From assembly GCA_023253625.1 (NCBI GenBank), contig JALRFY010000165.1:1-46440 (forward strand): a DNA stretch of 46,440 nt, written 5' to 3'. This document shows, piece after piece, positions 2,092 through 43,784 of the stretch; position 1 is the first letter of the stretch; each line of letters begins with the position of its first letter. The position numbers were made by a program, and so were the translations under genes. The notes under the pieces are model-generated. The model was not told the origin of the DNA, did not search any database, and saw only the letters and a program-made list of their open reading frames with translations. This stretch comes from Akkermansiaceae bacterium. GTDB taxonomy: Bacteria; Verrucomicrobiota; Verrucomicrobiia; Verrucomicrobiales; Akkermansiaceae.

Positions 2092-2742
2092 TTACCAGGC
2101 GCTTTGCTTGACATAGATCACATCGAACGGCCGCAGATAGAATGGAGTCTCGTCAAGGCCGTTGAGCGTGTGGTTCATGTTGAGCACGTAGCGCCGGGTG
2201 CGGCCCTTCTCGTTGCGGACCACAATCACCTGCTTGGGATTGGCGAACTTCGTGAAGCCGCCGGTCTCCATCACCGCCTCGAGCGCGGTCATCGGACGGT
2301 CCAGCGGCACCTTGCCGGGATTCACCACCTCGCCGGAGACATAGACGCCGGCGGCGGCGCTTTCGAGGCCCACGACCACGTTGGGGTTCTGGAGGTGTGG
2401 CTGATAGAGCGATGTCAGCTGCGTCTGGAAGCCGGTGATCGTCTTGCCGGCGGCACTCACATCGCCGACGGTCGGCAGGCTCACCCTGCCGTTTGGCTGG
2501 ATTTTCTGTTTGGTATTCATTTCAGGCGCACCGGAGAACGAGACGCTGATTTCATCTCCGGGGGCGAGCGCACCGGTCGGCCGGGGGGCCGCGGCAGAGG
2601 CGGGAATCGGGCTGGCGGAAGCGCCGGTTTCGCAGCTGCTCACGGCGAACAGCGCGAGAACACATGCTGTCGCGCTGGCCAGAAGCATGCCCGCACGAGC
2701 GGCGGATGGCATGGGTGAAGTCGATTCATTGGTCGTTTTCAT
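2092..2742 (-). CDS. Polysaccharide export outer-membrane lipoprotein, Wza-like
   Basis: A 216-residue protein with a long hydrophobic signal segment and a lipobox (LFAVSSC, Cys37), so it should be a lipoprotein exported across the inner membrane. After a proline/alanine linker comes a polysaccharide export domain (about residues 57-130, starting GDEISVSFSGAPEMN) and an SLBB-type segment (about 133-190, VYVSGEVVNPGKVPL). It is much shorter than E. coli Wza (about 380 residues), but short one-SLBB versions are common in other phyla. It would form or help form the outer-membrane exit for the polymer, working with the Wzc-like protein at 37464-39740. It is the last gene of the long minus-strand locus, 50 bases after its neighbour. 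Confidence 0.85.
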   Translation of the reverse strand: MKTTNESTSPMPSAARAGMLLASATACVLALFAVSSCETGASASPIPASAAAPRPTGALAPGDEISVSFSGAPEMNTKQKIQPNGRVSLPTVGDVSAAGKTITGFQTQLTSLYQPHLQNPNVVVGLESAAAGVYVSGEVVNPGKVPLDRPMTALEAVMETGGFTKFANPKQVIVVRNEKGRTRRYVLNMNHTLNGLDETPFYLRPFDVIYVKQSAW

Positions 2743-16683: not shown

Positions 16684-19600
16684 TCATTCACCTGAGGCAA
16701 GCACGCCAACCATCCGAGCGAACAGCCTGCCACCTGCATTCAATGAACGCGGGAGGTAAACCTTGACGAGTTCAGCACTGGTGCCTAGCGGCTCGATCAA
16801 AGTGACGACCCCATCGGTGGTGGCGGCATCAGCCCAGCCGCCCCCCAGTCCTGTGTTCCATTCGATACGGATTTCCAGATCCGGGTGGGTTGTGGCGCGG
16901 GCCGTCCGGCGGTGAGTGAAGACGAGGTATTCCGATGATGTTGTGTCTTGATCGGGATCGGCGGTTTCCAGGGCGGCGGCGGGCAGTAGTGCGGAATCGA
17001 CTCCGGATGCTGGATTTCCTCCAATGATGTATTCGATGAGGTTGCTGATACCATCGGAATCGAAGTCGTCTCCAGGGCCACCAGTGATTTCGGATTCCTC
17101 AAGCCAGCTCACAAAGTCATCCTTGGCGAGACTCAGCACGTTGATTTGCAAGGTCGCTTCGACGAAGAGCGTGCCGCCATCGGTGACGCGGATGGTGAAT
17201 TCGTTGAGCCCCACATCGCTGTTGGATGGGGTGCCGCCGAGTGTGCCGTCGGTGGCGACGGTCAGCCAATCGGGGCCGCTTTCCTTGGTGAATGTGAGCG
17301 TGTCGCCGCTGTCGGGATCGGTGGCGCTGCCAGCGAGCGTGCCGGCGTAGGGCGCGTCCTGGGTGGCGTCATTGGCGACGATCGGGTCGCTGGCGAAATC
17401 AGGCGCGTTGTTGCCAGTGACAACCGGGTTGATTCTTACATGGTCGATCATCATATCGGCATTTTTGGCATAGCCGGTATCGGCCGAGGCGTCCCTGAAT
17501 GTGAGTGTGGTGGTGGTATCGCTGGCTTGGAACACGATGTTCCGAGTTTCCCAGAATGACACCGCCGGGCCAGCCGAGGTAATGGTCTCCTGCCATGGGG
17601 AGCCGACCACACCATTCAGTGAAATCTCCAATTTCTGGACTCGCCCGGTTTCCCCGGTGATTCCTTGATCGAATTGCAATTCATAGGTTTGCCCGACTTG
17701 CGTTTCGAATGTCTGGGAGATACTGGTGCTGAAATTGTTGCTTCCGCCATTGAACAAGAGCATGCGGTCTCCATTGGTGGGATTGTAGGTGGCGAAAGCG
17801 TTCGAGTTGGTCGTGTAGCCGAATGACGGGTCATTGATGTCATTGATGAGGGTCCAGCCGTCCAGGCTTCCGAAGTTCGCGGGCAGACCGATTTCGAAAC
17901 TTCCGTTCGCCAGCAGGCCACCGGTTCTGGCCAATACCGTGATGGATACGGTGGCCGTGTTTGATTCCAGCAGCCCATCATTGGCCCGGTAGGTGAAGGA
18001 GTCGGATCCGCTGTGGTTCGGGTCCGGCGTGTAGGTGAAGCCGCCATCCGGATGGAGGGTCACCATTCCCTCGGCCGGGCCGGTGACCAATGTCGCTGTC
18101 AGCGGGCTTCCATTGGGATCGGAATCGTTTTGGAGCACTCCGTCACCGGAGCTTGCTGACAATGCAAGGCCTGCTTCCGCTAGATATGTGTCATTCACTG
18201 CGAGCGGCGGCGAATTGGTGGCGTAAACCGCAGTCAATGTCTGGTTACCCGCGATGGTGACGAGAGTGGTGGCCTCATCGTCGAAGTCGGTGCCGTTGAG
18301 CAGCCATTTGTCGAAAATGGAGCCGCCAACGGATGGCGGTGCGCTGAGGGTGACGGTTTCACCATCAAAGTATGAGCGTGTGAAATTGGTGAGCCCGTCG
18401 CCGTCGTTGTTCGCGTCGGGCGGGTTGAGACTGATGGTCAGGCCGGTGAGCGGGGCGGATTCCACCGTGAGCGTGCGTGAGGTGCCGGGGTTCACGCGGA
18501 CATTGTCGAGCAAAAGGTCCGCATTGATGGCATTGCCGGTACTGGCGGAGAGGTCGGTGAAGGTGATGGTGGTTTGCTCCGCATTGGCGATGAAGACATA
18601 TGTCCTGGCCTGCCAGAATGACACAGAGCTTCCCGCCGCAGTGATGGTTTCCTGCCACGACGGGTTGTTGGATCCGCTGGCGATGGAAATCCCCATCTTC
18701 TGTTGCTTTCCGGCAATGCCGGTGATGCCGAGATCAAGGTTGATGAGATAGGCTTGCCCAATAACGGTGGGGAATGTCTGGGAAATGGCGTCATCATACA
18801 CATTGTCACCGCCATTGAATACTGCGAGACGGTTGCCTTCGATTGGCGTGTAGGTGGCGGGGCCGGAGAACGTGGCTTGGCCGAAAGGGTCGCCGTTCAG
18901 AATGTTCCAATCATTTAGCGATCCATTGAAGGTGGGGGCACCGGCTTCGAAGCTGCCGTTTGCGATCAGGCCACCGGTCCTCGGGATCACGGTGAGCGTG
19001 ACCGTCGCCGCGGAAGGCGAGTCGGCGAGGCCGTCGTTGGCGAAATAAGTGAAGGTGTCCTGCCCCACATATCCTGCGTGCGGCTCGTAGGAAAATCCAC
19101 CGTCCGGATTGAGCGTGAGCTTTCCATTGGATGCCGTGGTTGCCGAGACCGCGAGCAGGGGTGATCCTTCCGGGTCGGAGTCATTGGCCAGCACGCCGCC
19201 TGCCGCATCCACGATGAGAATGGAGCCGCTTTCGGCGACATAGGAGTCATCGGCGGCTGCCGGTTCCTGGTTCTCTGAATAAACCGCCACGATTTCCTCA
19301 TCATGAGTAAAATCGATCGTGGCGGTGGTCTGTTGGGTGAAATCCTGTCCGTTGCGCTGCCATTTTGTGAAAACCTGATTTTCGGTGTAATCCGGTGCCT
19401 TGAGTGTGATGATCGAACCTTTGGCATAGGTGCGCATGAAGCTCGTCGCTCCGGCATCGGATTCGGCGACATCCGGCGGGTAGACTTGCACGACCACGCC
19501 GGATGGAATATTCGAATCAATCTCAAGCGTGCTGACCGGGCTTTCGGTGGCTCTGATGTCATCTAGCAGCAGGTCGCTGGCGTTTGTCATGGCGGGGTCG

Positions 19601-21686: not shown

Positions 21687-22955
21687 TCAGGCCTGCCGCC
21701 AGTAGTGGGGAACCAGCACGAAATTGCGCCAGTATTCGCTGTGGCAGACTTTGCCAGTACCATAGAAATCTCCATCGGTTGTATCGAGGTATGCCGCATC
21801 GAAGACCAGATCCTGCATTTCGGATCCGGACTCAAGATAGACATCGGTGCGATACCGGCCTCCGGCCAGCGGCCATGCCGGCACGATGAAATCAACATGG
21901 CCCTCACCGTGTATTTGCAGCTCCTGGCGTGACGAAAGCGCGGTGGAAAGGCCAAAATAGCATTCCAATTCCTTGTAGAAGGTCACACACAAGATGCACT
22001 TGCCCAGTGTTGCACCACCGTTCACCTCGTAGCATACCCGTAGACGGACTTCGCTTCCCGAGGCCGCCTCAGGCAAAGGCTTTCCAGAGGCGTCCAACAT
22101 TTCAAGGCGGGTGATCCTCGCGACGCCTTTTCCCGCTCGATCAGTGCGTGCGGCCAGATCCGTGGTGGCGAGCTGGCTGCCCGTGGAGAGATATTCCGCG
22201 ACGATCTGCTTGGTCCTGCCCTCCTTGATGAGGCGCCCCTGATCCATCAGCAGGCATCGCGTGCAGAGGTTCTGCACGGCGGGCATCTGATGGCTCACCA
22301 GGATCACGGTGCGGCCCTGTTTGGTGGAAGCATCCTCCATCTTGCCAAGGCACTTCTTTTGGAACTCCGCATCGCCCACCGCAAGCACCTCATCCACGAT
22401 GAGGATTTCCGGCTCCAGATGGGCCGCCACCGCGAAGGCCAGTCGGACATACATGCCGCTGCTGTAGCGTTTCACCGGGGTGTCGAGGAACTTGTCGATT
22501 TCCGCGAAGGCGACGATTTCGTCGAAGCGGCGTTTGATTTCCACGCGGGTCATGCCGAGGATGGAACCGTTGAGGAAAATGTTCTCGCGGCCGGTGAGCT
22601 CGGGGTGGAAACCGGTCCCCACCTCCAGCAGGCTCGCCACCCTGCCGCGCAGGCGGATGCGACCGGTTGTCGGCTCGGTGATGCGGCTCAGCAACTTGAG
22701 CAGCGTGGACTTGCCGGCACCGTTGCGACCGATCACCCCCAGCATCTCGCCTTGCCTGACCTGCAGGTTGAGGTCGCGCAGTGCCCAGAACTCGACGGTT
22801 TTCCTGCGGTCATCGCGTGTTTGCCGCCGCATCAATCCGAGCGGTGCCCGGACGATTCTTTCCAGCGCGTGGCGTAGACCGTCGCCTTTCTCGAGGTTGC
22901 GCCCGATCAAGTAGCGTTTCGAGAGGTTCTCGACCGATATGATGGAATCATTCAT
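21687..22955 (-). CDS. ABC transporter ATP-binding protein, Wzt-like with C-terminal cargo domain
   Basis: A 422-residue protein that powers export of the lipid-linked glycan across the inner membrane with the permease at 22992-23813. The ATPase domain (about 1-260) has Walker A GRNGAGKS (76-83), signature YSSGM (164-168), Walker B ILIVDE (184-189) and the H-loop SHQM. After about residue 265 comes a beta-rich domain of roughly 155 residues like the C-terminal domain of Wzt, which in E. coli O9a recognises the modified non-reducing end of the chain. The start lies 36 bases after the permease stop. Alternative family: teichoic-acid TagH, but the C-terminal domain favours Wzt. Confidence 0.9.
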   Translation of the reverse strand: MNDSIISVENLSKRYLIGRNLEKGDGLRHALERIVRAPLGLMRRQTRDDRRKTVEFWALRDLNLQVRQGEMLGVIGRNGAGKSTLLKLLSRITEPTTGRIRLRGRVASLLEVGTGFHPELTGRENIFLNGSILGMTRVEIKRRFDEIVAFAEIDKFLDTPVKRYSSGMYVRLAFAVAAHLEPEILIVDEVLAVGDAEFQKKCLGKMEDASTKQGRTVILVSHQMPAVQNLCTRCLLMDQGRLIKEGRTKQIVAEYLSTGSQLATTDLAARTDRAGKGVARITRLEMLDASGKPLPEAASGSEVRLRVCYEVNGGATLGKCILCVTFYKELECYFGLSTALSSRQELQIHGEGHVDFIVPAWPLAGGRYRTDVYLESGSEMQDLVFDAAYLDTTDGDFYGTGKVCHSEYWRNFVLVPHYWRQA

Positions 22956-22991
22956 GAGTGGGGTGTATGTCGGTGGATTGTGGCGGCTGGC

Positions 22992-23813
22992 TCAGATCAC
23001 GTCAGCGAAGGTTTTTTCCGTTTTGCGGAAATACCAGATGCCGGAGGCGATGACGCCCGCGACGATCAGCACGGAGATGCCAAGACCGGGCCAGTAGATG
23101 TTCCGTTCGCCCAGGATCGACCAGCGGAAGCCATCGATCACCCCCACCATGGGATTGAGCGAATAAAGCAAGCGCCATTTTTCCGGGACCACATTGCTGC
23201 TGAATCCGACCGGCGAGATATAAAGCCCGAACTGAACCACGAACGGGACGATGAAGCGGAAATCGCGATACCGGACCATCAGGGCAGAGATCCAAAGGCC
23301 GGCACCGAACGCCGTGGCGAAGGCGAGAAAAACAAAGAACGGCAGAAGGAACACCGCGCTTCCCGGAACGTGGCCATACCAGACCATCAGGATAGCCATC
23401 AGCACGAATGATATCATGAAATCGACTAAACTCGTGATCACGCTGCTGAAAGGCACCACCAGCCGGGGGAAATACACCTTTGATATCATGCCGGAGTTAG
23501 AGACCAGGCTGTTGCCGCTCTCAGAGAACGCGGTGGCGAAAAATTGCCACGGCAGCATGCCGCAGAACACGAGGATCGGGTATGGAATGCCGCCTGAGTC
23601 CATTTTCGCCAAGCGCCCGAACACGATCGTCAGCACCACCATGGTGAGAACCGGCCTGATGACCGCCCAGGTCACGCCGATGACCGTCTGTTTGTAGCGG
23701 ACGAGGATGTCGCGCCAGGCGAGGAAGTAGAACAGCTCGCGATAGCGCCACAGGTCCCGCCAATATTGGCGGCCGCTGTGTCCGGCCTCGATGGTGATTT
23801 CGTTCATTTTCAT
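22992..23813 (-). CDS. ABC-2 type polysaccharide transporter permease, Wzm-like
   Basis: A 273-residue inner-membrane protein with about six transmembrane segments. The N-terminus is cytoplasmic, with LFYFLAWRDILVRYKQTVIG, a hallmark of O-antigen/teichoic-type permeases, then VTWAVIRPVLTMVVLTIVFG and, near the end, LLYSLNPMVGVIDGFRWSIL, also typical. It pairs with the Wzt-like ATPase encoded 36 bases downstream. ATG 23813 or 23807 could be the start; the first residues (MKMNEI) do not decide. No flippase of the Wzx type was found, so this transporter is the probable route across the inner membrane. Confidence 0.92.
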   Translation of the reverse strand: MKMNEITIEAGHSGRQYWRDLWRYRELFYFLAWRDILVRYKQTVIGVTWAVIRPVLTMVVLTIVFGRLAKMDSGGIPYPILVFCGMLPWQFFATAFSESGNSLVSNSGMISKVYFPRLVVPFSSVITSLVDFMISFVLMAILMVWYGHVPGSAVFLLPFFVFLAFATAFGAGLWISALMVRYRDFRFIVPFVVQFGLYISPVGFSSNVVPEKWRLLYSLNPMVGVIDGFRWSILGERNIYWPGLGISVLIVAGVIASGIWYFRKTEKTFADVI

Positions 23814-26561: not shown

Positions 26562-27878
26562 TTACTGATGTGGCCCGCTTGCGGCTTGTTCTGCCAGCCC
26601 GGCGAAGATTCCATCGAGCCGCACCCGTGCTTCGTCCGCCCGGGCCATCAAAATTCCACGGATCTCCTCCCTTCGGCGGAACAATTCCAGTGTCCTGCGG
26701 ACCGCCTGCGCTGTTTCCGACTTCCTTGCCTCCACCACCCATTCCTCCATGCCGACGGATTCGAACACGCCATGGAACTTCATGCTGTAGGCCATGCCGA
26801 CACATGGAATCCCCTGCGAGAGCGCTGCGATGCAGGAATGCATTCTGGAGCCGATGAAGAATCCGCACATGCCAATTACGCCCTTGACTTCGTGCGGACC
26901 GAACTCGCCGGTCACGATGCGGATGCGGCCTGCGGGCAATGCCGCGCGTAGTGCCTCAGAGGCTTCGAGATCGCTCTCGACATCGCCCTTGCCGGCATAT
27001 GTGTGGGGGATCAGCCAGATCTCGCCACTCTGTTCCTTCAGCAACGCAAGCAGCAGCTGTGTCAGATACGCGGGATAATCCAACTTGAGGCCGAACATGT
27101 TGTCCCGCGAATAACCACCATGGAACATCAGTCCGTTCACATTGACCCCGATGGAAGGGCTGCATGAAATGCCGCGGGCGGGCGGATCGAGGGGGATCCC
27201 GGCTGGCAGTGTGGCACTCAGGGAAAATGCCATGTCAGGACTCAACAGGACCCGCCGCTTCGGCCCGGCCAGCTCCGCGGCGATGCCATGGCTTGTTTTG
27301 TCCCTTGCCATGATGATTGCCGAGCGCTTCAGCAAAAAGCGCGCCATGCATCTGGCGAGCGGGCTTTTGAAAGGACCATAGGTCTGCGGAAGCTGGATCA
27401 AAGTGCCCTTCACCAGCAGGGCCGACCATGCGGCGAGACAACCGATGGCGAAGCGTTTAAAGCCATAGATATCGCTGAAACTGTCGCCGCCCCGGACATC
27501 GGCCGTCATGTCGCAGCTTTCGATTGCGGCGATGAATGGTGTCGCCCTGGAAATGGATGCGCGCAATGCGGGCAGCGGCATGCAGCGGTAAAGCATCGCC
27601 ATCGCGGTGATCCACAGCAGGTGATCGCATGGGCGCGATTTCGGGGACATCCGGAAATTCACCACTGGAACCGTCACAACGCCCGCAGTAGTGCGGAAGA
27701 GAAGGTTTTCCCTGCGATCGTGTCCCGCCAGCAGAATCACCTTTGTCCCGTGCACGGAGTTCGTGCAGAGGTTGACCACCGAGGCAGCCAATGCCTGTAC
27801 GCCTTGGTTGCGCGAGCTGGCCGGGATGCCCAGCAGGCCGAGGCGGATGGGGGGCGGGTGTTGTCCGGCTGGTGTCAT
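26562..27878 (-). CDS. Polysaccharide pyruvyl transferase family protein
   Basis: A 438-residue enzyme expected to place a pyruvyl ketal, from phosphoenolpyruvate, on a sugar of the repeat unit. Family features: IRLGLLGIPASSRNQGVQAL at the N-terminus, RGGDSFSDIYG (GGDxF motif), and the C-terminal FIGSRMHSCIAALSQGIPCV followed by GMAYSMKFHG. Pyruvyl ketals add negative charge and in some bacteria anchor S-layer proteins. The start overlaps the O-antigen polymerase-like gene by ATGA (27875-27878). A cytoplasmic enzyme with no signal peptide. The acceptor sugar cannot be told from sequence. Confidence 0.9.
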   Translation of the reverse strand: MTPAGQHPPPIRLGLLGIPASSRNQGVQALAASVVNLCTNSVHGTKVILLAGHDRRENLLFRTTAGVVTVPVVNFRMSPKSRPCDHLLWITAMAMLYRCMPLPALRASISRATPFIAAIESCDMTADVRGGDSFSDIYGFKRFAIGCLAAWSALLVKGTLIQLPQTYGPFKSPLARCMARFLLKRSAIIMARDKTSHGIAAELAGPKRRVLLSPDMAFSLSATLPAGIPLDPPARGISCSPSIGVNVNGLMFHGGYSRDNMFGLKLDYPAYLTQLLLALLKEQSGEIWLIPHTYAGKGDVESDLEASEALRAALPAGRIRIVTGEFGPHEVKGVIGMCGFFIGSRMHSCIAALSQGIPCVGMAYSMKFHGVFESVGMEEWVVEARKSETAQAVRRTLELFRRREEIRGILMARADEARVRLDGIFAGLAEQAASGPHQ

Positions 27879-29245
27879 GGTGGGCAGAAAGTTCGCTGTT
27901 CGCAGATGGGGTGGATGGTCCGAAATCCGGCGGCACCGCAGCCTGCCGCATGCGCCTCCCCGCAGTCTTCCAGGGCAGGGGCCTCCTCGTTTCCGTCATC
28001 CTCTTGCGTTGAGTGGAATTTCAGGGAGGTGACCGCGGCAAGGCACAGGAAAAAGAAAATATATGACTGGTCGAAATAAGAGACCGACAGCGCGGTGGCG
28101 GTGTGCGCGAACAATGCCGATCCGATGCACCATGTGATGAACCTCTCCCGCCCGGCGGCCGGCGGGAGCGAGGAAAGAATGGCACCGATGTGGCGGAAAC
28201 CGGTGACAATCATAGCGAGGAAGAGAACCACCACGAGGATCCCGCCCCACACGCCCATTTGCAGGTAGTAGTTGGTGATATCACAGTGATCCGGGCTCCA
28301 AGTGACGCCGGTCGGCATCCAGTGGCGGGTGAAATTGGTGCCTGCCAGCCACCATTCGTCGAAATGTGCGATCGCGGATTCGATCAACTGGGCACGGTGC
28401 CAGCCGGTGCTGCTGCCCGTGAGGTCGATCGCGGCGATGACGTAATATGCCGGCCGGTTCATCAGCAGCTCGAGCAGCAGGTAGCCGGCCACGCATCCCC
28501 ATCTGACGAGCGCGGTCCATTCGCGGCGGAACCAGAGGAAAAGCGTGCCACCTGCGAAAATCAGACTCATCAGCGGGCCGCTCGAATTGCTGGCACCCAC
28601 CATCAGCAGACACGACGCCATACCCACCATCGAGGTGAGCCGGTGTTCATTCCATAACGACAGCATGAGAGGAAATGTCGCGGCTCCCACGCTGCCGGCG
28701 AGGATGGCGTGGGCGAACGGCCCCGCCGCGCGGAATTTTCCCTCCCGCTCCAGGATCACCGCGCCAAAAACCGAGAACAGATTGCGGCCGGTGATGTGTT
28801 CCGAGACCATTTCCAGGGCGATCGGTGCCAGTAGCCATGCCATCAGTTTGAAAATGCCCGTCAATTCGTCGTGGTTGGCGCAGAACACGCGTATCAGGAA
28901 ATAGATGCCTCCGATGTTGAAAGCCTGGCCGAAGTTGAACACCCATGGTGCCCTGCCGCCGGGGTGGAGCGCGCTGCTAGCCACCATGCAGGCCATCCAG
29001 GCGATCACCAGTTTGTCCATGCCGTCGAATCCGCCGGCGATTCCCTCGCGTCGCACGATGACGCGCAGGAAGCCCACCGCCACCAGGATGCGGATCACCG
29101 TGAGGGTGATCGGGCCGATGTCGATGCGTTGTGTCACTGTCATGTAGCAACAACCCACCAGCAGTGGCAGCAAGGCCATGTTGCGTGGCAGAATGAGCAG
29201 TGCCGCCGCGTTGACCGCGAGGAATATGAAAGTCAGCAGGGTCAT
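27875..29245 (-). CDS. O-antigen ligase/polymerase family membrane protein (Wzy/WaaL-like)
   Basis: A 456-residue inner-membrane protein with roughly ten to eleven hydrophobic segments, beginning MTLLTFIFLAVNAAALLILP. A long periplasmic loop (about residues 280-345, with RAQLIESAIAHFDEWWLAGT) is followed by DITNYYLQMGVWGGILVVVL, the H/D-N-x-Y-L pattern of O-antigen ligases and polymerases. The C-terminal 50 residues are soluble and cysteine-rich, unusual for the family. It would polymerise repeat units or transfer the glycan to an acceptor in the periplasm. The ATG at 29245 is preceded by a C-rich 104-base gap; the longer frame upstream has no homology signal. Confidence 0.85.
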   Translation of the reverse strand: MTLLTFIFLAVNAAALLILPRNMALLPLLVGCCYMTVTQRIDIGPITLTVIRILVAVGFLRVIVRREGIAGGFDGMDKLVIAWMACMVASSALHPGGRAPWVFNFGQAFNIGGIYFLIRVFCANHDELTGIFKLMAWLLAPIALEMVSEHITGRNLFSVFGAVILEREGKFRAAGPFAHAILAGSVGAATFPLMLSLWNEHRLTSMVGMASCLLMVGASNSSGPLMSLIFAGGTLFLWFRREWTALVRWGCVAGYLLLELLMNRPAYYVIAAIDLTGSSTGWHRAQLIESAIAHFDEWWLAGTNFTRHWMPTGVTWSPDHCDITNYYLQMGVWGGILVVVLFLAMIVTGFRHIGAILSSLPPAAGRERFITWCIGSALFAHTATALSVSYFDQSYIFFFLCLAAVTSLKFHSTQEDDGNEEAPALEDCGEAHAAGCGAAGFRTIHPICEQRTFCPP

Positions 29246-29349
29246 GCGGCGGCAATGCGGGGGGTGGGGGGATTCAAGCTGGCTGCAGGCTGAGCCGGCG
29301 ATGGGCGTGTTCGTATGGCGGCCCGCTTGGGGGCAGGGGCCGCGGTATG

Positions 29350-30786
29350 TCACTTGTCCTCGCCAAAGCCCGTCGGAGTGGCTGGCTTGCTGGTCGGAGG
29401 TGGCTGTTTGCCGCCCGGACCGGCACCCAGATCACGGTATTGGGACATCATCTGGATGACGAAGGAGTTCATCGCATTCGGCAGGCCGGAATACTGGCCG
29501 TTCTTCTCGATGTTCCAGAACCGGTCCTGATAGAGAAAGAACGGCTCCCAATTCCAAACGGCGCGTCCTCCGGTGGTCAGCAGGATGGCAAGGAAGTTAC
29601 CCATCACCGGGCCACCATTGCTGTGACGGTAGAGGATGTCCCAGTTGGAGCCGTCGCGCGATGGGTTCGAGCTGTGTTTCTCGCCCCATTCCGGCATGCC
29701 CACATGTTCCTGGCGGTAGGTTTCGCGCACCCTTCCATCGGCGGTATACATCTGGCGGCCCACATCGGATTGCTGGACGATGAATGTCTGGCGGTCTTCA
29801 TGGAAAACGAAGTTTTGGCCGCCATCAGCCCACTTCAGGAGTTCCGGATCCTTCAGGGCGCAAGCGGCGAGCACCAGAGGTGCCTTGCGCCCTACATTGA
29901 GCCCGCCGTTGTCCATGAACACGGTGCCTGCCTTGACCGATCCATGGATATCGATTCCGTATTGCACCAGGCGGATGTAGAGATTGCGCTTCTGTGCGTT
30001 GCTGTAATTCAAGTGAAGCGATAACATGGCGTCACCCAACTGGTGGGCCTGGTCCCTGCCATATTCAGGCATGTTGTCCTGTGGTGAGATATATCGGCTG
30101 GGCGAATTGTCCATCTGGCAGAACCAGGGCCGTTGCAAATACCCCTCCACCGTGGCAAGTGGCGGAGTGGACGAGACCGGGGAAAGCGATTTCAGGATCG
30201 AGTAGTCGAGCTGGCTTTCCGTCCAGCGGGAGCTTTTGTCCGTGCCCATGACTGGCGGCCGGAAGGCACCGGCGGGCGGGGCCTGGCTGACGACGGTGAG
30301 GACGGCACCTACGAGTAGTTGCGGGCGGGTGGCCGCACTGCCCGCGATGGATTTCGATACGGTGGAAACCACTGATCCGGTGCTGACCAGAAGTGGCGAG
30401 CCGGTGGCGGATGGTGCCACATTGCCGGTGTAAAAAGCGCCATAGTGGGTGATGGAGCTGTCATATCCCTGGCCGTAGCCTTTGGCGGGATTGACCATCG
30501 TGCCGTTGCGCGTCCAGCCATTGGCATCCCTGGTGCTCGCAGGGGTGATGCTGGTGATGGTGACGGGGCCGACCACCCACCAATCCCCGTTGCAGTATTG
30601 GCCGACTTGGCGGTCTTCGCTCCATTTCCATGTGAACCCATATTGGAATACCGAGGTGGCGGCGGGTGCGGCGGGTGCCAGGAATCCCAAGGCGACGGCT
30701 ACCGCAAGCCGGGTGGCATGTCTGCCGCAGGTCCGTGGGACAAGGGCCGCAATTGCGCAAAATCTGTATGAAGGCATGGAGTTCAT
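29350..30786 (-). CDS. Secreted protein of unknown function
   Basis: About 478 residues. The N-terminus has a basic stretch followed by LAVAVALGFLAPAAPAATS, a likely Sec signal peptide, so the mature protein is periplasmic or extracellular. Domains I can see: an N-terminal beta-rich part (GQYCNGDWWVVGPVTITSIT) and a helical C-terminal half with aromatic-rich repeats (NGGLNVGRKAPLVLAACALK, WNWEPFFLYQDRFW) that faintly recalls alpha-toroid polysaccharide lyases. That resemblance is weak and no catalytic residues can be assigned. ATG 30786, 30777 or 30819 could be the start; 30786 gives the most regular signal peptide. A low-complexity Pro/Thr tail ends the protein. It may trim or bind the polymer, by context only. 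Confidence 0.65.
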   Translation of the reverse strand: MNSMPSYRFCAIAALVPRTCGRHATRLAVAVALGFLAPAAPAATSVFQYGFTWKWSEDRQVGQYCNGDWWVVGPVTITSITPASTRDANGWTRNGTMVNPAKGYGQGYDSSITHYGAFYTGNVAPSATGSPLLVSTGSVVSTVSKSIAGSAATRPQLLVGAVLTVVSQAPPAGAFRPPVMGTDKSSRWTESQLDYSILKSLSPVSSTPPLATVEGYLQRPWFCQMDNSPSRYISPQDNMPEYGRDQAHQLGDAMLSLHLNYSNAQKRNLYIRLVQYGIDIHGSVKAGTVFMDNGGLNVGRKAPLVLAACALKDPELLKWADGGQNFVFHEDRQTFIVQQSDVGRQMYTADGRVRETYRQEHVGMPEWGEKHSSNPSRDGSNWDILYRHSNGGPVMGNFLAILLTTGGRAVWNWEPFFLYQDRFWNIEKNGQYSGLPNAMNSFVIQMMSQYRDLGAGPGGKQPPPTSKPATPTGFGEDK

Positions 30787-35985: not shown

Positions 35986-37467
35986 TCAAGATGCGCCGCG
36001 GCTGCACAGCACGGCGGGTATGGTTTTGAAAAGGATCTGGAGATCGAGCCCGATCGACCAGTTCTCGACGTATTCATGGTCCATCTGCATCCAGCGGTCG
36101 AAGGACACCTGGTTGCGTCCGCTGATCTGCCAGATGCAGGTGATGCCCGGTTTGACGCAGAGGCGCTTGCGGAACATCCACTCGTATTGATTCACCTCGT
36201 CAGCCAGCGGCGGGCGCGGACCGACGAGGCTCATCTCGCCGCTGAGCACATTCAGGAGCTGGGGCAGTTCGTCGATGCTGGTGCGGCGGATCAAGCGCCC
36301 GATCGGGGTGATGCGCGGATCGTTCTCGATCTTGAACGCCGGGCCATCACGCTCGTTGAGGTGGATAAGCCCGGACTTGCGCTCCTCGGCATCCACGACC
36401 ATCGAGCGGAACTTGTAGAGTTTGAATTTGCGCTGGTTCATACCGACGCGTTCCTGGACGAACAAGACCGGCCCCGGGCTGGTTAGCTTGATGATTGCCG
36501 CCACCAACAGCAGCAGGGGGGAAAAAACCACCAGCGCGAGCAGCGAGAGCGAGGCGTCGATCAGGCGCTTCACAAACAATTGCAACAACATCTGCTCGCG
36601 GAACAGGGTGATGACCATCTCGTCCTCGAATTCCTCGATGTGGAGATGGCGGAGCAGGTGGCCATCCGCAATCTCGGGTATGAGCCGCACGACGATGCCC
36701 AGCTCGCGCGCGTTCTGTATGATGCCTGCGATGTCGCTGAAACGGCTTTCCACCGGCAGGCATACGATCACCTCGTCGGCGCGCTGCCCGGTGAAGATGT
36801 TGCGGAGGTTCCGCAGCTCCCCGAGCAGCGGCCACGGGCCGGGCGGGTCATTCCGCCATTTTTCCGCGGCTTGAGGCGTCTCGGCGATGAATCCGACAAT
36901 CTTGTATCCGAGTTCGGGCCGGTCTTCGATTTTCTCCGCCATCTGGACCGATCGTGGGTTCGCGCCAATGACGAGCAGGTAGCGGTAGTTGTATCCGGAG
37001 CGGCGTGCGCTCAGCAACAGGATGCGCTGGAACAAGCGGCTCAATACACCGATGAGAGCCACCGCCGTGAAGAAAACCAGGATGTTGGTGAAGCTGAAAC
37101 TGCTTGCGGAAAAGACCGAGCTGATGATCAGCAGCCAGAGCGACGAGACGCAGATGGCCTTGATGAGGCTCTTGAGCTGCATGTTGAACGCCACAAGGCG
37201 GTCCGCCTTGTAGCGGATGAAGTAGTCGAATATGCCGATCCAGCCGATGATCAGCAGCAGCAGTCCGACGGCATCCCCAATGCGGAAGGTGGCTTCCATG
37301 GCATGGCTTCCACCCCGCATGAGCATTTCCGGCCGGTAGTGGATGATGCCGATGGCCACGGCCACCATGACCAGCTGATCGAACAACCGGAACATGTGAA
37401 TGAGCATCTTGTGGCGGAGCCGGATCATGGCTGCGTGTGTGTGGGGGAGCTTGTGAGTGGAGATCAT
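35986..37467 (-). CDS. Undecaprenyl-phosphate sugar phosphotransferase (WcaJ/polyprenyl glycosylphosphotransferase family)
   Basis: A 493-residue initiating transferase. The N-terminal half has four hydrophobic segments (about 26-44, 65-85, 103-120, 124-143), then a nucleotide-binding-like domain ([11 protein letters not shown], about 160-290). The C-terminal catalytic domain has a membrane re-entrant helix, [38 protein letters not shown] and [18 protein letters not shown]. It would load the first sugar phosphate, probably glucose-1-phosphate, onto undecaprenyl phosphate. The ATG at 37467 overlaps the Wzc-like stop (ATGA). A second enzyme of this type is encoded at 39928-41304. Confidence 0.92.
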
Positions 37468-39740
37468 CCGTCTCCGAGCAGCCACGCGGGGCCGTGGCTG
37501 CGGGTTTTGTTGAAGACGCAGGAAACATCCGCCCGGCCCCTGGTGAGTTCCGAATACCCCCATTTGAGGCTTTCGCGGCTGGTGTTCCGGGCATCGAGCA
37601 CCAGCAGCACCTTGTCCATCAGGCCCGCCATGGCGAGGGTGCGGCTGGTCTGGTCCACAGGTGGCATGTCGAAGATGATATAATCATACTCGCTGGCCTG
37701 AAGCATCGGCATCATCTCATGAAGCTGGAACGGTGTGAAACGGGATGCCCCGGGCTCGTCCCGGCGTGCCGGCGCATTGGCATAATATAAACTCTGCGGG
37801 CGTTCCCTGAACCCCGGAGACCGGGCCAGCCTCAGTGCGTTGGGAAGCGAGTGGCGGGGGATTTCCCCGAACAGCGGGCTTTCCTGGGGATGGCACGAGC
37901 TGAGGTCCACCAGCAGGACCTTGACACCGCGGATCTCGGCGAAGGACTTGGCGAGGCCGGCGGCGATGGTCGAGGTGCCGGCCCCCTCCGTCATGCCGGT
38001 GACCGCCACGAGCTTGGGTTTGTGGGTGACGTTGTTGACCTCGAAGTTGAAAACAATGCGGTCCCGGATGGTTTCCGAGTAGGGCAGGATGAAATGCTCC
38101 GGGCGGTTGTGATCGTCCTCCTCGGCGATTTCGTAATCCTGATCTTCGGAGATGGCGGGCAGGCCGGCCTGGTGGTCGCTGATACGCGGGGTGTCGCCTC
38201 GGTTGCCGAGCAGCATGCCGCTGTGTCCTCCGCGGCGGAAGTAGGGGATGGAGAGCAGCAGCGGCAGTTGCAGGCGTGTCTGGATTTCCACCGGGCGCTC
38301 GACCTTGCGGTTGAAGAGCATCTCGATGAGGAACGCGAGGCCGAGCCCGAGTGCGAGACCGCCGCCCGCAAGGCCGAAAATGATTTTGCGCATCTGTGCG
38401 TCGAAGGTTTTGACCGGCTCGGAAGGCTGTTGAATGATATTGATGTTGGGTATGCGCGAGGGGTCGAGGGTCATGTCGAGCCGGGCATCCTTGAGCTTCA
38501 CTTCCAGCGAGCGGAATTCCGCGTCTTCGAGTTGCTTGCGGCGCTCGAGTTCCTCGATCCGGGCACCGATGGCGTATTGTTCTGCGAAGAGTTTGCCGAT
38601 TTCGCGCAAGTGGGCCTCGAAGACATCGATTTTGGCGCGAATGGCGGCCAGCCGGGTTTTTTCCTGTTCGAGCGAGTGCTGCGCATCGTTGCTGTTTGCG
38701 GGGTTTATGAGTGCTTTTTCGTCGGACAGCCCGGGATATGTGCCGAGCATCGAGATTCGCTTGCGATCATAGGTGGCGATCTGGTTTTGGCTTTGGGCGA
38801 GCAGTGGGTTGCCGGGTTTGAATTTAATGCGCAGCTCGAGATCGCGTTTCTGGAGGATGGCGAGCATTTCCATGACGGCGCGGAATTCGGTGATGATCTG
38901 CGGCGGCACATGCTCTGCGGCCGTGGGGGCTGTGTCATCCTCGGGGGGATTCCCGTGCCCTGGCGCCTCCAAGGCGATGATGCGGGTGCTTTGTTCGGCG
39001 AGTTCGGCACGTGCCGTCATCAGGTCTTGCTGGGTGCGGTTTTTTTGCGCGGCCAGCGACTCGGTGGCGTCCTTGAGCGAGAGGATTCCCGAGCGGGTTC
39101 GCAATTCGTTGAGTTCCGCCTCGGTTCCGGCAAGGCGCACGCCGACATCGGCGGCTTGTTTGGAGATCAGATCGAAGGAGGCCGCAGAGCGGTGGATATC
39201 GAGGTGTTTTTTGAAATAAAGCTCGATGAGTTTCTCGAGCACACTGCGGGAGATTTCACGGCCGGGGTTGTTGAAGGTGATGTGAAGCACGTTGGGGCTG
39301 GTGCCGGTCTCGACCACGAGTTCTGAGGCGATCACCCCCGCGGCTGCGGAGAGGAGTTTTGTTTCATCCCCGGGACTTTGTGCGACGGCTCCGTTGAGCA
39401 GGCGGCGCGTGCCGATCTCCGCGGCCACCTCCATGGCGAGGTCGAGACTGGAGAGAATTTCAATCTCGGTCAGGATCACCGGGTCGCCATGACGGTGGGC
39501 GGCACTGCCGGGGCTTTTCATCGCCGCATACGGGTCCACGCTGGCGCTTTCCACCACGTATCGGACCAACAACCTGGCGGTGGATTGATAGATGGGTTGC
39601 TGATGGCAATACAATCCTGCGGCGGCGGCGAATCCCGCCAGCGCAAGCAGTGAAATCATCCACTTGCGCTTGAATACCACGAAGAGGACGTCGCGCGGAT
39701 CGAAGCCTTCCCGGGTGCTCTTGGATGGGTTTTTCTGCAT
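37464..39740 (-). CDS. Wzc/GumC-like polysaccharide co-polymerase with a degenerate BY-kinase domain
   Basis: A 758-residue protein. A short cytoplasmic start leads into TM1 (about 27-45), a Wzz-type periplasmic domain with long coiled coils (about 190-430), TM2 (about 450-474) and a kinase-like domain (about 570-758). The Walker A loop reads EGAGTST (585-591), so the lysine required for ATP is replaced by Thr589; the Walker A' region is LLVDLSSCHP, lacking the second aspartate, while Walker B YIIFDMPPV is kept. There is no tyrosine-rich tail: it ends [10 protein letters not shown]. It should still set chain length and link the exporter to the Wza-like protein. The ATG at 39740 was chosen because codons before it lack homology. 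Confidence 0.88.
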   Translation of the reverse strand: MQKNPSKSTREGFDPRDVLFVVFKRKWMISLLALAGFAAAAGLYCHQQPIYQSTARLLVRYVVESASVDPYAAMKSPGSAAHRHGDPVILTEIEILSSLDLAMEVAAEIGTRRLLNGAVAQSPGDETKLLSAAAGVIASELVVETGTSPNVLHITFNNPGREISRSVLEKLIELYFKKHLDIHRSAASFDLISKQAADVGVRLAGTEAELNELRTRSGILSLKDATESLAAQKNRTQQDLMTARAELAEQSTRIIALEAPGHGNPPEDDTAPTAAEHVPPQIITEFRAVMEMLAILQKRDLELRIKFKPGNPLLAQSQNQIATYDRKRISMLGTYPGLSDEKALINPANSNDAQHSLEQEKTRLAAIRAKIDVFEAHLREIGKLFAEQYAIGARIEELERRKQLEDAEFRSLEVKLKDARLDMTLDPSRIPNINIIQQPSEPVKTFDAQMRKIIFGLAGGGLALGLGLAFLIEMLFNRKVERPVEIQTRLQLPLLLSIPYFRRGGHSGMLLGNRGDTPRISDHQAGLPAISEDQDYEIAEEDDHNRPEHFILPYSETIRDRIVFNFEVNNVTHKPKLVAVTGMTEGAGTSTIAAGLAKSFAEIRGVKVLLVDLSSCHPQESPLFGEIPRHSLPNALRLARSPGFRERPQSLYYANAPARRDEPGASRFTPFQLHEMMPMLQASEYDYIIFDMPPVDQTSRTLAMAGLMDKVLLVLDARNTSRESLKWGYSELTRGRADVSCVFNKTRSHGPAWLLGDG

Positions 39741-39766: not shown

Positions 39767-39931
39767 TCAGGCCATGATGCTGGCACGGGTTTTTTGCCGA
39801 AGCGCCCGGGCCACGCGCTCGATGCGATCCTTGGCCAGCCTGGGGCAAATCAGTAATGATATCATTTTCGGTGGAGGTTTGTCCGGTCCGGCAGGCGAGC
39901 GGGCATGCATTTCGAGAAGCGGAATGTTCAT
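39767..39931 (-). CDS. Small hypothetical protein, 54 residues, coupled to the upstream gene
   Basis: A small open frame begins MNIPLLEMHARSPAGPDKPP and ends in a basic amphipathic stretch (LAKDRIERVARALRQKTR). Its ATG (39931-39929) overlaps the stop of the sugar-transferase/acetyltransferase gene as ATGA, the same coupling used by most genes here, and it occupies what would otherwise be the longest gap near the start of the locus. It lies 26 bases before the Wzc-like gene. I do not recognise a family. Coupled position argues for translation; short length argues for caution. It could also be a decayed gene end. Confidence 0.42.
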   Translation of the reverse strand: MNIPLLEMHARSPAGPDKPPPKMISLLICPRLAKDRIERVARALRQKTRASIMA

Positions 39932-41304
39932 TCCGATATGGCGGCAGGGGTTGCAATGGGACGTGCGGCATGGCCGGCCACGGTGGCGCCGTCCGGGACA
40001 TCGTGTGTCACCATGCTGCCGGCACCTATCATGGCATTGCGGCCCACCGTGACTCCGCCGAGGATGGTGCTGCCCGAGCCGATGGAGGCCCCATGGCGGA
40101 CGCGGGTGGGCAGGAGCGGCCAATCGCCCGGGCCTTGCGGGCTGCCATCCGGATTGAGGGCGCGGGGATGGCGGTCATTGGTGAAGACGACGCCGTGCCC
40201 GATGAATACGCCATCCTCAATGGTGACGCCTTCGCAAATGAAACTATGACTGGAGATTTTGCAGAATGCACCGATCCGCGCGCCCTTCTGGATCTCGACG
40301 AATGCGCCGATGCGCGTGCCCTCGCCAATGACGCAGCCATAAAGATTGACGAAGGCATGAATGGTGACGCCACGGCCGAGCGTCACATCATCCGAGATGC
40401 GCCGATGGTTTTCCAAAGCGGCGGAGTGCTTCGTTCCGGGCCCGCGTCTGGTTCCCGGGCCGTCTGCTTCGCCGGAGACCGGCCATCCGGGACTCTGGGT
40501 GCCTGTCTCATTGAGAGTCCCGCTGTTGGAGGCGGCATTGGCTGGCTCCGGCCTGTGGATGGCGGCACGGTGCCGGATACAGGCCATGTGCAGCTGGGAG
40601 CAAACGGCCCGCGGCGTCTGGCAGATGATCTTCAGATCCAGCGGCACGCAGGCATGGCGCACGTAGCCAGCATCCATGGCATTCATCTCGTCGAATGTCG
40701 CGAGGTTTCTGCCTTGGACTTGCCAGACGCCGGTGAGACCCGGCAACGCCTGGAATCGAACGCGCTGGATGCCGGTGAAATAGCGGTATTCCTCTGGCAG
40801 GCACGGGCGTGGGCCGACGAGGCTCATTTCCCCACGCAGAATGTTGAGGAGCTGCGGCAGTTCGTCGATGCCGGACGCCCGGAGCAGGCAGCCACCTGGA
40901 ATCAGCCGGGGATCGCGAATCAGGTCCAGCTTGACCATCGGGCGGTTGTTTTCCACCAGATTCCTGAAGTGTCTCAGGTGGCTGGTGCATTCCGAGTCCG
41001 GCCGCATGGTGCGGAATTTGTACAGCATAAAACATCGGCCATCGCGGCCGATGCGGGTCTGGCGGAAAATCGCCGGACCTTGGGAAACGAGTTTGATCCA
41101 GAGGGTGACGAAGGCGGCGAGCGGCAGGATCACTGGCAGTCCGATCAGGATCAGAGTGATATCCAACAGGCGCTTACCGGAAACTGCGGCCAGGGAAGAT
41201 CCCAGGCAATCCGCCGCAAGGCGACGGGCTGCGGTTGGCAAATGGGGGATGGAATTGTGATGGAGGGACACGCAACGTGCCCTCACTGGTGAAGTGGAGC
41301 TCAT
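39928..41304 (-). CDS. Fusion of a sugar-phosphate transferase and a hexapeptide acetyltransferase
   Basis: A 458-residue two-enzyme protein. Residues about 41-240 are a short-form bacterial sugar transferase with one membrane helix: KRLLDITLILIGLPVILPLA, LYKFRTM (94-100), IDELPQLLN (146-154), SLVGPRP (161-167) and PGLTGVWQVQGRN. A Pro/Gly-rich linker (about 250-300) leads to a left-handed beta-helix (about 303-450) with FVEIQKGARIG, SHSFICEGVTIEDG and GHGVVFTNDRHPRALNPDG, like WlbB-type N-acetyltransferases. It would attach the first sugar phosphate to the lipid carrier and acetylate an amino sugar. First gene of the locus; no Shine-Dalgarno, and its ATG abuts a C-rich repeat, so an internal GTG start (41286) is possible. 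Confidence 0.88.
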   Translation of the reverse strand: MSSTSPVRARCVSLHHNSIPHLPTAARRLAADCLGSSLAAVSGKRLLDITLILIGLPVILPLAAFVTLWIKLVSQGPAIFRQTRIGRDGRCFMLYKFRTMRPDSECTSHLRHFRNLVENNRPMVKLDLIRDPRLIPGGCLLRASGIDELPQLLNILRGEMSLVGPRPCLPEEYRYFTGIQRVRFQALPGLTGVWQVQGRNLATFDEMNAMDAGYVRHACVPLDLKIICQTPRAVCSQLHMACIRHRAAIHRPEPANAASNSGTLNETGTQSPGWPVSGEADGPGTRRGPGTKHSAALENHRRISDDVTLGRGVTIHAFVNLYGCVIGEGTRIGAFVEIQKGARIGAFCKISSHSFICEGVTIEDGVFIGHGVVFTNDRHPRALNPDGSPQGPGDWPLLPTRVRHGASIGSGSTILGGVTVGRNAMIGAGSMVTHDVPDGATVAGHAARPIATPAAISE

Positions 41305-41745: not shown

Positions 41746-43215
41746 TCAGGAGCATCTCTTGCGCTCGATGGCCACCAGAGTGACATCATCGAGATTCGGG
41801 CGGTTCCCGGTGAATTGAATGAGGTCCTCCTGCAGGCGCATGACCACGGCTTCCGCTCCCATGGGGGCTGCCAGGCGGAAGGTTTCCGCCATGCGTTCCA
41901 TGCCGAACTCCTCGTCTTCCTGGTTGGCTGCCTCACGGACGCCATCGGTGTAGAAAAGCACGCAATCGCCGGGGAGGAGTTCGATGCGCTGATCGCGGGT
42001 GACGCGTTCGAAAACCGGGCCGGCATCCACGCCCAGCGCGAGGCCGGGTGATCGCAGGGTTTCCACGCAGCCGGTTTCCTTGCGGAAAAGCAGTGCCGGG
42101 TCGTGACCGGCACGGGCCAGAATGAGACTGCCATCTGTGGTGTCCAGGATGCCGTATGCCATGCTGATGAACATATCCTCGCGGATATCCGGATAGAGCA
42201 GGCGGTTGACGGCCGCAAGCACCTCGGTGGGGGATTGGCGGGCGGGCGCGACCGAGCGGAGGACACTGCGGCACATGGCCATGAGCAATCCGGCCGCGAC
42301 GCCCTTGCCGGAGACATCGGCGATCGCGATGCCGTGTTGGTGGCTGCCGAGATCGATGTAATCGAAGTAATCGCCACTGATGATGCGGGCGGGCAGGTTG
42401 GTGCCGCTGATGCGGAAGCCTGGCACCACCGGTTCGCCTTGCGGGAGAAGCACGCGCTGGACCTCCCGGGCATTCTGCAGTTCGCTTTCGATCAGGCGCA
42501 TCTCGTGCGCCTGCCGGTGGACCCTTGCGTTGCCGATGGCGAAGGACGATTGTTCGGCGGCGGAGCGGAATACGGCGAAATCGTTGTGGTTGAAGCGGCC
42601 GTCGCGATGGCTCCGCGCGACGATGAGCACGCCGAGATCCTTGCCGGCATGCCGCAGTGGAGCAAGCAGCGCTGAGACGTCGTCGCTGTATCCGATGAAG
42701 GCGTCCCTGAAGGATGGATGACTTTTCACATCGGTCACATGAATCGCCTCACCGACTGCCAGGCAATGGCCGATGATTCCCTCATCCACCGCGACGCGGG
42801 CCAGTCGCAGGTGGCTTTCGAGCGCCTTGGGGTCGCGTGCGGCTTTTTTGCGGACCTCCACCGGGATGCCGATGAGCGGCGGGCAATCGTTCGAGATGTA
42901 GGATGGATGGAGATATGACTGGTCTTCGCCGAGGAAATAAACGGCCCCGCCGCGCGCTTTGACCACCTTGTCGATGCCGTCCACGATGATGCGCGAGAGC
43001 ACGGTGGGTGATGGCTCGTTCTCGATGGCTTCACCGAGATCATGGAGGAACGAGAACATGCGTTGTTCCTCGCCCTCGAATTCGTTGAAGCGGTTGCGGA
43101 TGCGCCTGTTCCTGCGCCGTTGGTTCTGGAGGGCCAGAAGCAATGCGGAAATCAGCGCGAGCGATGCGAGGAGCCCGATGAGCGTGGGGTCGGGCTGGAG
43201 TAGGAATGGCGGCAT
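41746..43215 (-). CDS. RsbU-like PP2C/SpoIIE serine phosphatase with membrane anchor and GAF domain
   Basis: A 489-residue regulator. One membrane helix (about 10-30, LIGLLASLALISALLLALQ) is followed by a charged linker, a GAF-type sensor domain (about 65-235) and a SpoIIE/PP2C domain (about 275-489) with ISGDYFDYIDLG, IADVSGKGVAAGLLMA, FYTDGVREA and LDDVTLVAI, the metal-binding aspartates being present. It would dephosphorylate an anti-sigma antagonist such as the STAS protein encoded 26 bases upstream. The sensed signal is unknown. The open frame extends 82 codons upstream into that gene, so ATG 43215 is preferred. Confidence 0.9.
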   Translation of the reverse strand: MPPFLLQPDPTLIGLLASLALISALLLALQNQRRRNRRIRNRFNEFEGEEQRMFSFLHDLGEAIENEPSPTVLSRIIVDGIDKVVKARGGAVYFLGEDQSYLHPSYISNDCPPLIGIPVEVRKKAARDPKALESHLRLARVAVDEGIIGHCLAVGEAIHVTDVKSHPSFRDAFIGYSDDVSALLAPLRHAGKDLGVLIVARSHRDGRFNHNDFAVFRSAAEQSSFAIGNARVHRQAHEMRLIESELQNAREVQRVLLPQGEPVVPGFRISGTNLPARIISGDYFDYIDLGSHQHGIAIADVSGKGVAAGLLMAMCRSVLRSVAPARQSPTEVLAAVNRLLYPDIREDMFISMAYGILDTTDGSLILARAGHDPALLFRKETGCVETLRSPGLALGVDAGPVFERVTRDQRIELLPGDCVLFYTDGVREAANQEDEEFGMERMAETFRLAAPMGAEAVVMRLQEDLIQFTGNRPNLDDVTLVAIERKRCS

Positions 43216-43241
43216 CTGCGGCAGGATGGCTGACGGTTTCC

Positions 43242-43784
43242 TTACGCGCTTCCGCCATTTTTTGCCAGCCTCTCTTTTTTCGAAAGCTCTTCCTGGAGCG
43301 AGCCGACCACGCCGGCGAAGCTGCTGGCGTTCTTCGGGTTGATGCCGGAGAGTGTCTGGTGGGCATCGAGGACGTGGCGGGTGCGTTGCAGCCGCCCGGG
43401 ATCGGGTTGCTGGTGCAGCGGCTCGAGCTGGCCGCGGATCTTTTCCAGCGAGCCGCGCCAAGGCGCCAGTGGCGGATCGATGTCCATGAGGAAATCGAGG
43501 CCCAGATCTTCGAGCGACCTGCGGTTGCGCTCGCCGGGCTCGGCGATGTGAAGGCGGCCGCCCTCGATGGAAGAGAGCCGGGCCGCAGTGCCCGCGAGCG
43601 TGCCCATGAATGTGGAATCCATGCCGCTGCAGGCCGCGAGATCCACCACCAGGATGTTGTCACCGGCGGCCATGCGGCTGTCGAAATACGCCTTGAGTGC
43701 CGGGCTGTTGAGGAAGGAACCTTTGCCTTCTAGTCGGATCCAGCTGAAGTCCTCGAAATTTCCGACTGTCAGAGAGCTGTCCAC
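43242..43784 (-). CDS. STAS-domain protein, anti-sigma factor antagonist-like (RsbV-like)
   Basis: A 180-residue protein whose first 110 residues form a STAS domain: ILVVDLAACSGMDSTFMGTL contains the loop with Ser57/Thr58, where RsbV-type proteins are phosphorylated. The remaining 70 residues are charged and helical, longer than simple RsbV proteins, and may be a partner-binding tail. The adjacent PP2C phosphatase is its natural partner; the kinase (RsbW-type) expected in a partner-switch was not found in the window. The pair sits next to the polysaccharide locus control region and may regulate it (inference). Confidence 0.85.
   Translation of the reverse strand: MDSSLTVGNFEDFSWIRLEGKGSFLNSPALKAYFDSRMAAGDNILVVDLAACSGMDSTFMGTLAGTAARLSSIEGGRLHIAEPGERNRRSLEDLGLDFLMDIDPPLAPWRGSLEKIRGQLEPLHQQPDPGRLQRTRHVLDAHQTLSGINPKNASSFAGVVGSLQEELSKKERLAKNGGSA

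Follow-up and report, generated by a model that had tools for sequence, protein, structure and literature searches.

Bacterial tyrosine (BY) pseudokinases that serve polysaccharide co-polymerases (PCPs) have been described before. In M. xanthus the stand-alone BY pseudokinase EcpK (EpsV) is needed for exopolysaccharide (EPS) and binds its PCP-2 (PMC12004946). According to the account given there, HfsB of C. crescentus is likewise a stand-alone BY pseudokinase without kinase residues and Tyr tail, needed together with the PCP-2 HfsA, and the survey of Cuthbertson et al., as cited in the same source, contains fused PCP-2/BY pseudokinase variants, namely SMc01795 of S. meliloti and proteins of B. 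ceti, M. japonicum and V. vulnificus. The kinase-dead K540M variant of Wzc forms stable octamers (PMC8285477). Here we describe a Wzc-type PCP-2a co-polymerase whose fused cytoplasmic domain is probably a BY pseudokinase. It is encoded in a stretch of 46,440 nucleotides from an environmental Akkermansiaceae bacterium (Verrucomicrobiota), positions 1-46,440 of contig JALRFY010000165.1 of assembly GCA_023253625.1, hereafter the window.

The window protein shares with E. coli Wzc the two transmembrane helices, the Wzz domain, the long periplasmic helices, the fused BY-kinase fold (Z ~20) and the association with an outer-membrane polysaccharide export protein (OPX) and a Wzy-like candidate, but it lacks the Walker A lysine, the DxD motif, the subsequent Arg and the Tyr-rich tail, and the EX2RX2R motif is changed to ExxRDR. 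It resembles the EcpK system in that a BY pseudokinase works for the PCP-2 of a Wzx/Wzy pathway and in having a short OPX partner, the window OPX resembling EpsY. EcpK stands alone and is devoid of several structural elements and of all Walker motifs, whereas the window domain is fused and full length and has kept Walker B, part of Walker A and the first Walker A′ Asp. HfsB, as reported, agrees in the missing kinase residues and Tyr tail and differs in being stand-alone and alphaproteobacterial. The fused proteobacterial variants, likened here by their described architecture, have the same arrangement of PCP and BY pseudokinase in one polypeptide. Because EcpK, HfsB and a few fused proteobacterial cases precede it, the kind of protein is already known; for BY pseudokinases of this type in Verrucomicrobiota no paper was found in the open-access literature. 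What is new is that the fused family spans the phylum, that it arose once on the tree, that its site is half conserved and bears an invariant signature of its own, and that some genomes have no other PCP.

Architecture and active site of the fused domain

The protein and its elements are located as follows.

37464..39740, minus strand: PCP-2a co-polymerase (Wzc-type) with a fused putative BY pseudokinase domain, 758 residues, from the open reading frame and domain searches
39417..39701, minus strand: Wzz / chain-length determinant domain (E 3.4e-8, above the Pfam cut-off; residues 16-108 with E 2.8e-7 in another search)
37467..38309, minus strand: cytoplasmic BY-kinase-like domain, modelled with AlphaFold2 as residues 478-758 (kinase-like core ~550-758)
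38058..38084, minus strand: rewritten α2 oligomerisation motif PYSETIRDR (553-561), aligned with RDR instead of EX2RX2R
37968..37988, minus strand: degenerate Walker A EGAGTST (585-591), with the Thr589 codon ACC at 37974-37976
37893..37919, minus strand: half-lost Walker A′ VLLVDLSSC (608-616), with D612 present, S614 replacing the second Asp, and the Arg gone
37659..37679, minus strand: intact Walker B IIFDMPP (688-694) with D691, from the sequence
37467..37511, minus strand: short conserved C-terminus, residues 744-758, without a Tyr cluster, from the sequence

Besides the Wzz domain, the features of a PCP-2a found in this protein are two transmembrane helices, near residues 27 and 452, around a long helical periplasmic part, and a fused cytoplasmic domain. 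The full-length model (pLDDT 83, pTM 0.59) has the corresponding layout, and the model of residues 478-758 (pLDDT 85, pTM 0.82) superposes on Wzc 451-707. The closest solved folds are all BY-kinases, with Wzc, Etk, CapAB and BceF at Z 18-20 as compared with ~11 for MinD/Get3, and the domain is accordingly predicted to adopt a BY-kinase fold that lacks the catalytic lysine and the Tyr tail; it shares these traits with the EcpK/HfsB type, in which the pseudokinase stands alone beside a kinase-less PCP-2, and departs from it in being fused. The two halves of the protein find their best NCBIfam matches in TIGR03007 (XrtA/PEP-CTERM chain-length determinant) and TIGR03018 (XrtA tyrosine autokinase), which are separate models there and fused in the window PCP; the curated cut-offs of these XrtA models are missed by a wide margin (56.6 versus 278.85 bits and 44.5 versus 230.65 bits, respectively).

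The first-pass annotation of this DNA, made from its letters, had read the frame as a Wzc-like protein whose otherwise full-length kinase-like domain carries Thr589 at the position of the BY-kinase lysine, keeps Walker B and ends without a tyrosine cluster, and all of these observations hold. Its statement that the Walker A′ aspartate is lost applies to the second Asp and the Arg, while the first, D612, is kept. The proviso that a sequencing error might hide a lysine codon at 37974-37976 can be dismissed, because ACC is two substitutions away from both AAA and AAG and because independently assembled genomes of many species show the same loss, with none of 92 relatives carrying Lys.

A lysine-less family in the Verrucomicrobiota

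These 92 non-redundant relatives were fetched with scan patterns that left out the P-loop. Of 260 genomes from the taxonomic family of the window bacterium, 42 contain an orthologue (two of them by marginal matches close to the limit of E 1e-10), and judged by record title orthologues occur within the Verrucomicrobiota in Akkermansiaceae, Chthoniobacterales, Limisphaerales and Opitutaceae. Position 589 is occupied by Val (34), Thr (31), Ala (21), Ile (3), Ser (2) or Asn (1). Within the same loop G588 and S/T590 are found in 92/92. In Walker A′ D612 is Asp in 84/92 sequences, whereas position 614 is Asn in 51, Ser in 24, Thr in 11 and Asp in none, and the following Arg is lost. Walker B D691 is present in 90 (Glu in the remaining 2).

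Further changes lie outside the Walker motifs. The α2 signature comprises R559 (91/92), D560 (92/92) and R561 (91/92), so that, in an alignment-dependent reading, EX2RX2R has become ExxRDR and only the last Arg aligns; ordinary BY-kinases read E..R..RTN. At the C-terminus N744 (91/92), K745 (87/92, Arg in 5) and P751 (86/92) are conserved, and the tail following FNK has 14-23 residues with 0-2 Tyr. R559, G588, S/T590, D612, D691, D709 and N744 are shared with ordinary kinases; Lys589, the second Asp and the Tyr tail are lost; D560, R561, F566, P575, M692 and K745 are new to the family. K576 is invariant (92/92) and partly conserved in ordinary BY-kinases. RDR, HKPK and FDMP together form a signature peculiar to this Verrucomicrobiota family.

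As a control, 28 ordinary BY-kinases were sampled from the same phylum. All 28 contain the lysine, as opposed to none of the 92, and all 28 contain DxD with Asp at position 614; most have 5-12 Tyr within the last 40 residues. In a broad profile search of 388 genomes every P-loop-containing match above ~275 bits lacks the lysine and the readable matches at ~147 bits or less carry it, leaving a score gap, and among the P-loop-containing matches above ~275 bits no Lys-bearing intermediate between the two forms was found. When the trait columns were excluded from tree building, the ordinary BY-kinases came to lie on one side of a single branch (SH-aLRT 99) and the lysine state changed once; in this tree the root and some long and distant rows (L216, L224) are uncertain. 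Two distant lysine-less relatives, L212 and L213, retain Asp at 614, so loss of the lysine probably preceded that of the second Asp. As judged from these alignments, the Thr589-type loss is a family-wide trait across the phylum and not the peculiarity of a single odd gene. The dN/dS of the kinase-like domain amounts to 0.010-0.222 and is below the whole-gene value in 19/19 closely related pairs, which are not all independent; by this measure the domain is under purifying selection, stronger than that on the gene as a whole.

Close plasmid-borne relatives were not found, identities being at most ~31%. Among the plasmid matches, those from Deinococcus and Chelatococcus contain the P-loop Lys. 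A stand-alone match on a Shinella plasmid (L237 2312-3103), annotated as hypothetical and located beside a polysaccharide export gene, has Thr for this Lys (GCGTT) and is possibly a BY pseudokinase with an independent lysine loss.

Role of the domain and alternative explanations

Taken together, the window domain is probably a fused BY pseudokinase that serves as a scaffold in an export machine of the Wzx/Wzy type operating independently of phosphorylation. In the proposed mechanism a single event at the base of the Verrucomicrobiota-wide family turned the kinase domain into a pseudokinase, unless it was one already. It would sit at the inner-membrane base of a co-polymerase ring and help to assemble the PCP, the Wzy-like polymerase and the short OPX into one complex without tyrosine phosphorylation cycles, control being exerted not by phosphorylation but by association and dissociation or by a nucleotide that the domain binds. 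Phosphotransfer would be absent from the domain and, because the latter retains the fold yet no longer has the lysine and the tyrosines needed, the polymer machine very probably runs without tyrosine phosphorylation. The loss of the lysine is compatible with ring formation, since Wzc K540M, dead at the same lysine, still forms octamers. The earlier suggestion that the pseudo-kinase has a structural or regulatory role, and that length control does not depend on cycles of tyrosine phosphorylation, gains strong support from sequence comparison: the family-wide loss of Lys and Tyr tail without reversal, the purifying selection, the BY-kinase fold and the genomes with a sole PCP all point to an inactive, scaffold-like domain. 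To that suggestion the present analysis adds the phylum-wide nature of the trait, the conservation of the Mg/nucleotide half of the site, and the existence of BY pseudokinases described previously (PMC12004946).

Several points weigh against this interpretation. A Wzc-like octamer is not assured: the α2 EX2RX2R motif, which packs the Wzc and CapB rings, is rewritten and the octamer-holding Tyr tail is missing, and since both of these elements hold the Wzc ring, the ring contacts must differ from those in Wzc. As phosphorylation cycling is thought to be essential in Wzc, an alternative trigger must exist. The conserved S/T590, D612, D691 and N744 may permit nucleotide binding or slow hydrolysis, and an unrelated tyrosine kinase may act on the PCP in trans.

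One refinement of the scaffold interpretation we regard as a tentative possibility: the domain would transfer no phosphate but still bind Mg-ATP or Mg-ADP, the nucleotide state setting ring assembly. Among the residues compared, those on the Mg and base side are kept at the frequencies given above while Lys589 and the second Asp are gone, G588 is invariant, and the strand, turn and helix of the P-loop have high model confidence. Proteins whose P-loop lacks the lysine are, however, usually poor nucleotide binders, and the retained residues may only stabilise the fold. Carried further, the family could be a phylum-wide PCP-2a subfamily with a nucleotide-sensing, non-phosphorylating switch, in which Mg-nucleotide at S/T590, D612, D691 and N744 steers the ring via RDR, HKPK and FDMP; this remains rather doubtful. 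It is quite unlikely that the protein is a true kinase or ATPase of an unorthodox kind, with K576 or K/R745 in the role of Lys589. Relocated catalytic lysines do occur in other kinases (WNK), K576 is invariant and position 745 is Lys or Arg in all 92 sequences; yet a Tyr tail that could serve as substrate is missing, as is the second Asp, and K576 is unlikely to reach the phosphates, because in the model it begins the strand whose far end bears the P-loop. Another view, that the kinase domain is a dispensable remnant in the course of being lost, would explain the missing catalytic residues and the fact that position 589 is about as variable as the average column (rank 113 of 214), but it is very improbable and was rejected on the dN/dS values, which remain below those of the whole gene; moreover, the frames of full-length members are open, the full-length domain is retained across the phylum, and residues such as D560, F566, P575 and K576 have become invariant.

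Regulation in trans, with an active BY-kinase of the same cell phosphorylating or mixing with the pseudokinase PCP, is unlikely. The window genome would offer the partners: it contains two further Wzc-type ordinary BY-kinases on contigs C153 (reading GEGKST) and C84 (with Lys and DxD), as well as two genes for low-molecular-weight phosphatases elsewhere in the genome. These kinases, however, each adjoin their own OPX gene, the window OPX being the third, and the pseudokinase PCP has no Tyr tail to be phosphorylated. Two genomes of relatives bear on the question. G479, a single contig of 4.09 Mb that is 97% complete, has one Wzz, one OPX and one BY-kinase-like domain, which is the pseudokinase, its other weak match being ParA; G579 (70 contigs) likewise contains a single Wzz and a single OPX, with only a weak match of 263 residues in addition. 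Neither an ordinary BY-kinase nor another PCP was found in either genome, so that an ordinary BY-kinase in trans is not needed for the family generally, and phosphorylation in trans was rejected as a general mechanism.

In a large, old and conserved family that includes genomes without another PCP, neither an obvious catalyst for the phosphorylation cycle nor a Tyr tail as its substrate is present, and the automatic name "tyrosine autokinase" is wrong for its members. Because the scaffold candidate is fused, full length and separated from Wzc by few defined differences, the essentiality of the phosphorylation cycle for Wzx/Wzy export becomes testable.

The surrounding polysaccharide cluster

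The window represents one polysaccharide cluster, in which initiating transferases flank the PCP and which further contains glycosyltransferases, a deacetylase and nucleotide-sugar genes. The genes relevant to the export machine are:

35986..37563, minus strand: initiating sugar-phosphate transferase (EPS_sugtrans), directly downstream of the PCP (TIGR03025, 398.9 bits, above cut-off)
39928..41304, minus strand: second sugar transferase fused to a hexapeptide acyltransferase in a single open reading frame, directly upstream of the PCP
27875..29353, minus strand: Wzy-like polymerase candidate (44% identity to the homologue in genome G141, 37% to that in G479)
2092..2742, minus strand: short OPX (Poly_export), 216 residues (PF02563, E 5.5e-17)

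The listed EPS_sugtrans frame overlaps the stop of the PCP and its real start is probably an internal Met; members of its family lie near the PCP in 57/76 loci. The candidate Wzy assignment rests on the G479 homologue, which gives a weak Wzy_C match (E 1.2e-5, below the Pfam cut-off). The short OPX is likely the outer-membrane partner of the PCP. It resembles the XrtA export protein model TIGR03027 (E 2.2e-29) and M. xanthus EpsY (E 1.5e-20), both below cut-off, and G141, G138, G145, G150, G013 and G479 likewise carry an OPX on the same strand as the PCP and 29-43 kb downstream of it. The window PCP is thus encoded together with an OPX and a Wzy, in keeping with a PCP-2a, the Wzy being a candidate below cut-off. 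No Wzx flippase was found on the window contig, while the cluster of the relative G141 includes a MOP flippase.

Relatives of the pseudokinase PCP are located near XrtA-type FemAB, OPX, PrsK/PrsR/PrsT and an exosortase. In the vicinity of the G479 PCP an XrtC-like exosortase, PrsK, PrsR, PrsT, FemAB and, downstream, a short OPX are encoded (L241:13571-18986, L242:13-5029); they make up an EPS locus of the PEP-CTERM type that has no ordinary tyrosine kinase. A DUF354-type glycosyltransferase-like gene (L102:5822-8362) directly follows the PCP in 58/76 loci and is missing from that place in the window.

The cluster holding the Wzy-like, PCP-2a and OPX genes also contains an ABC exporter pair, an ATPase with a Wzt C-terminal domain and an ABC2 membrane protein (21687-23813, minus strand), and a protein of 1607 residues (16684-21507, minus strand) in which Ig/cadherin-like and DUF642 domains come after a GDSL lipase domain. 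A gene for a GAF and SpoIIE-type PP2C phosphatase (41746-43461, minus strand), located upstream of the cluster, may encode a Ser/Thr-based regulator.

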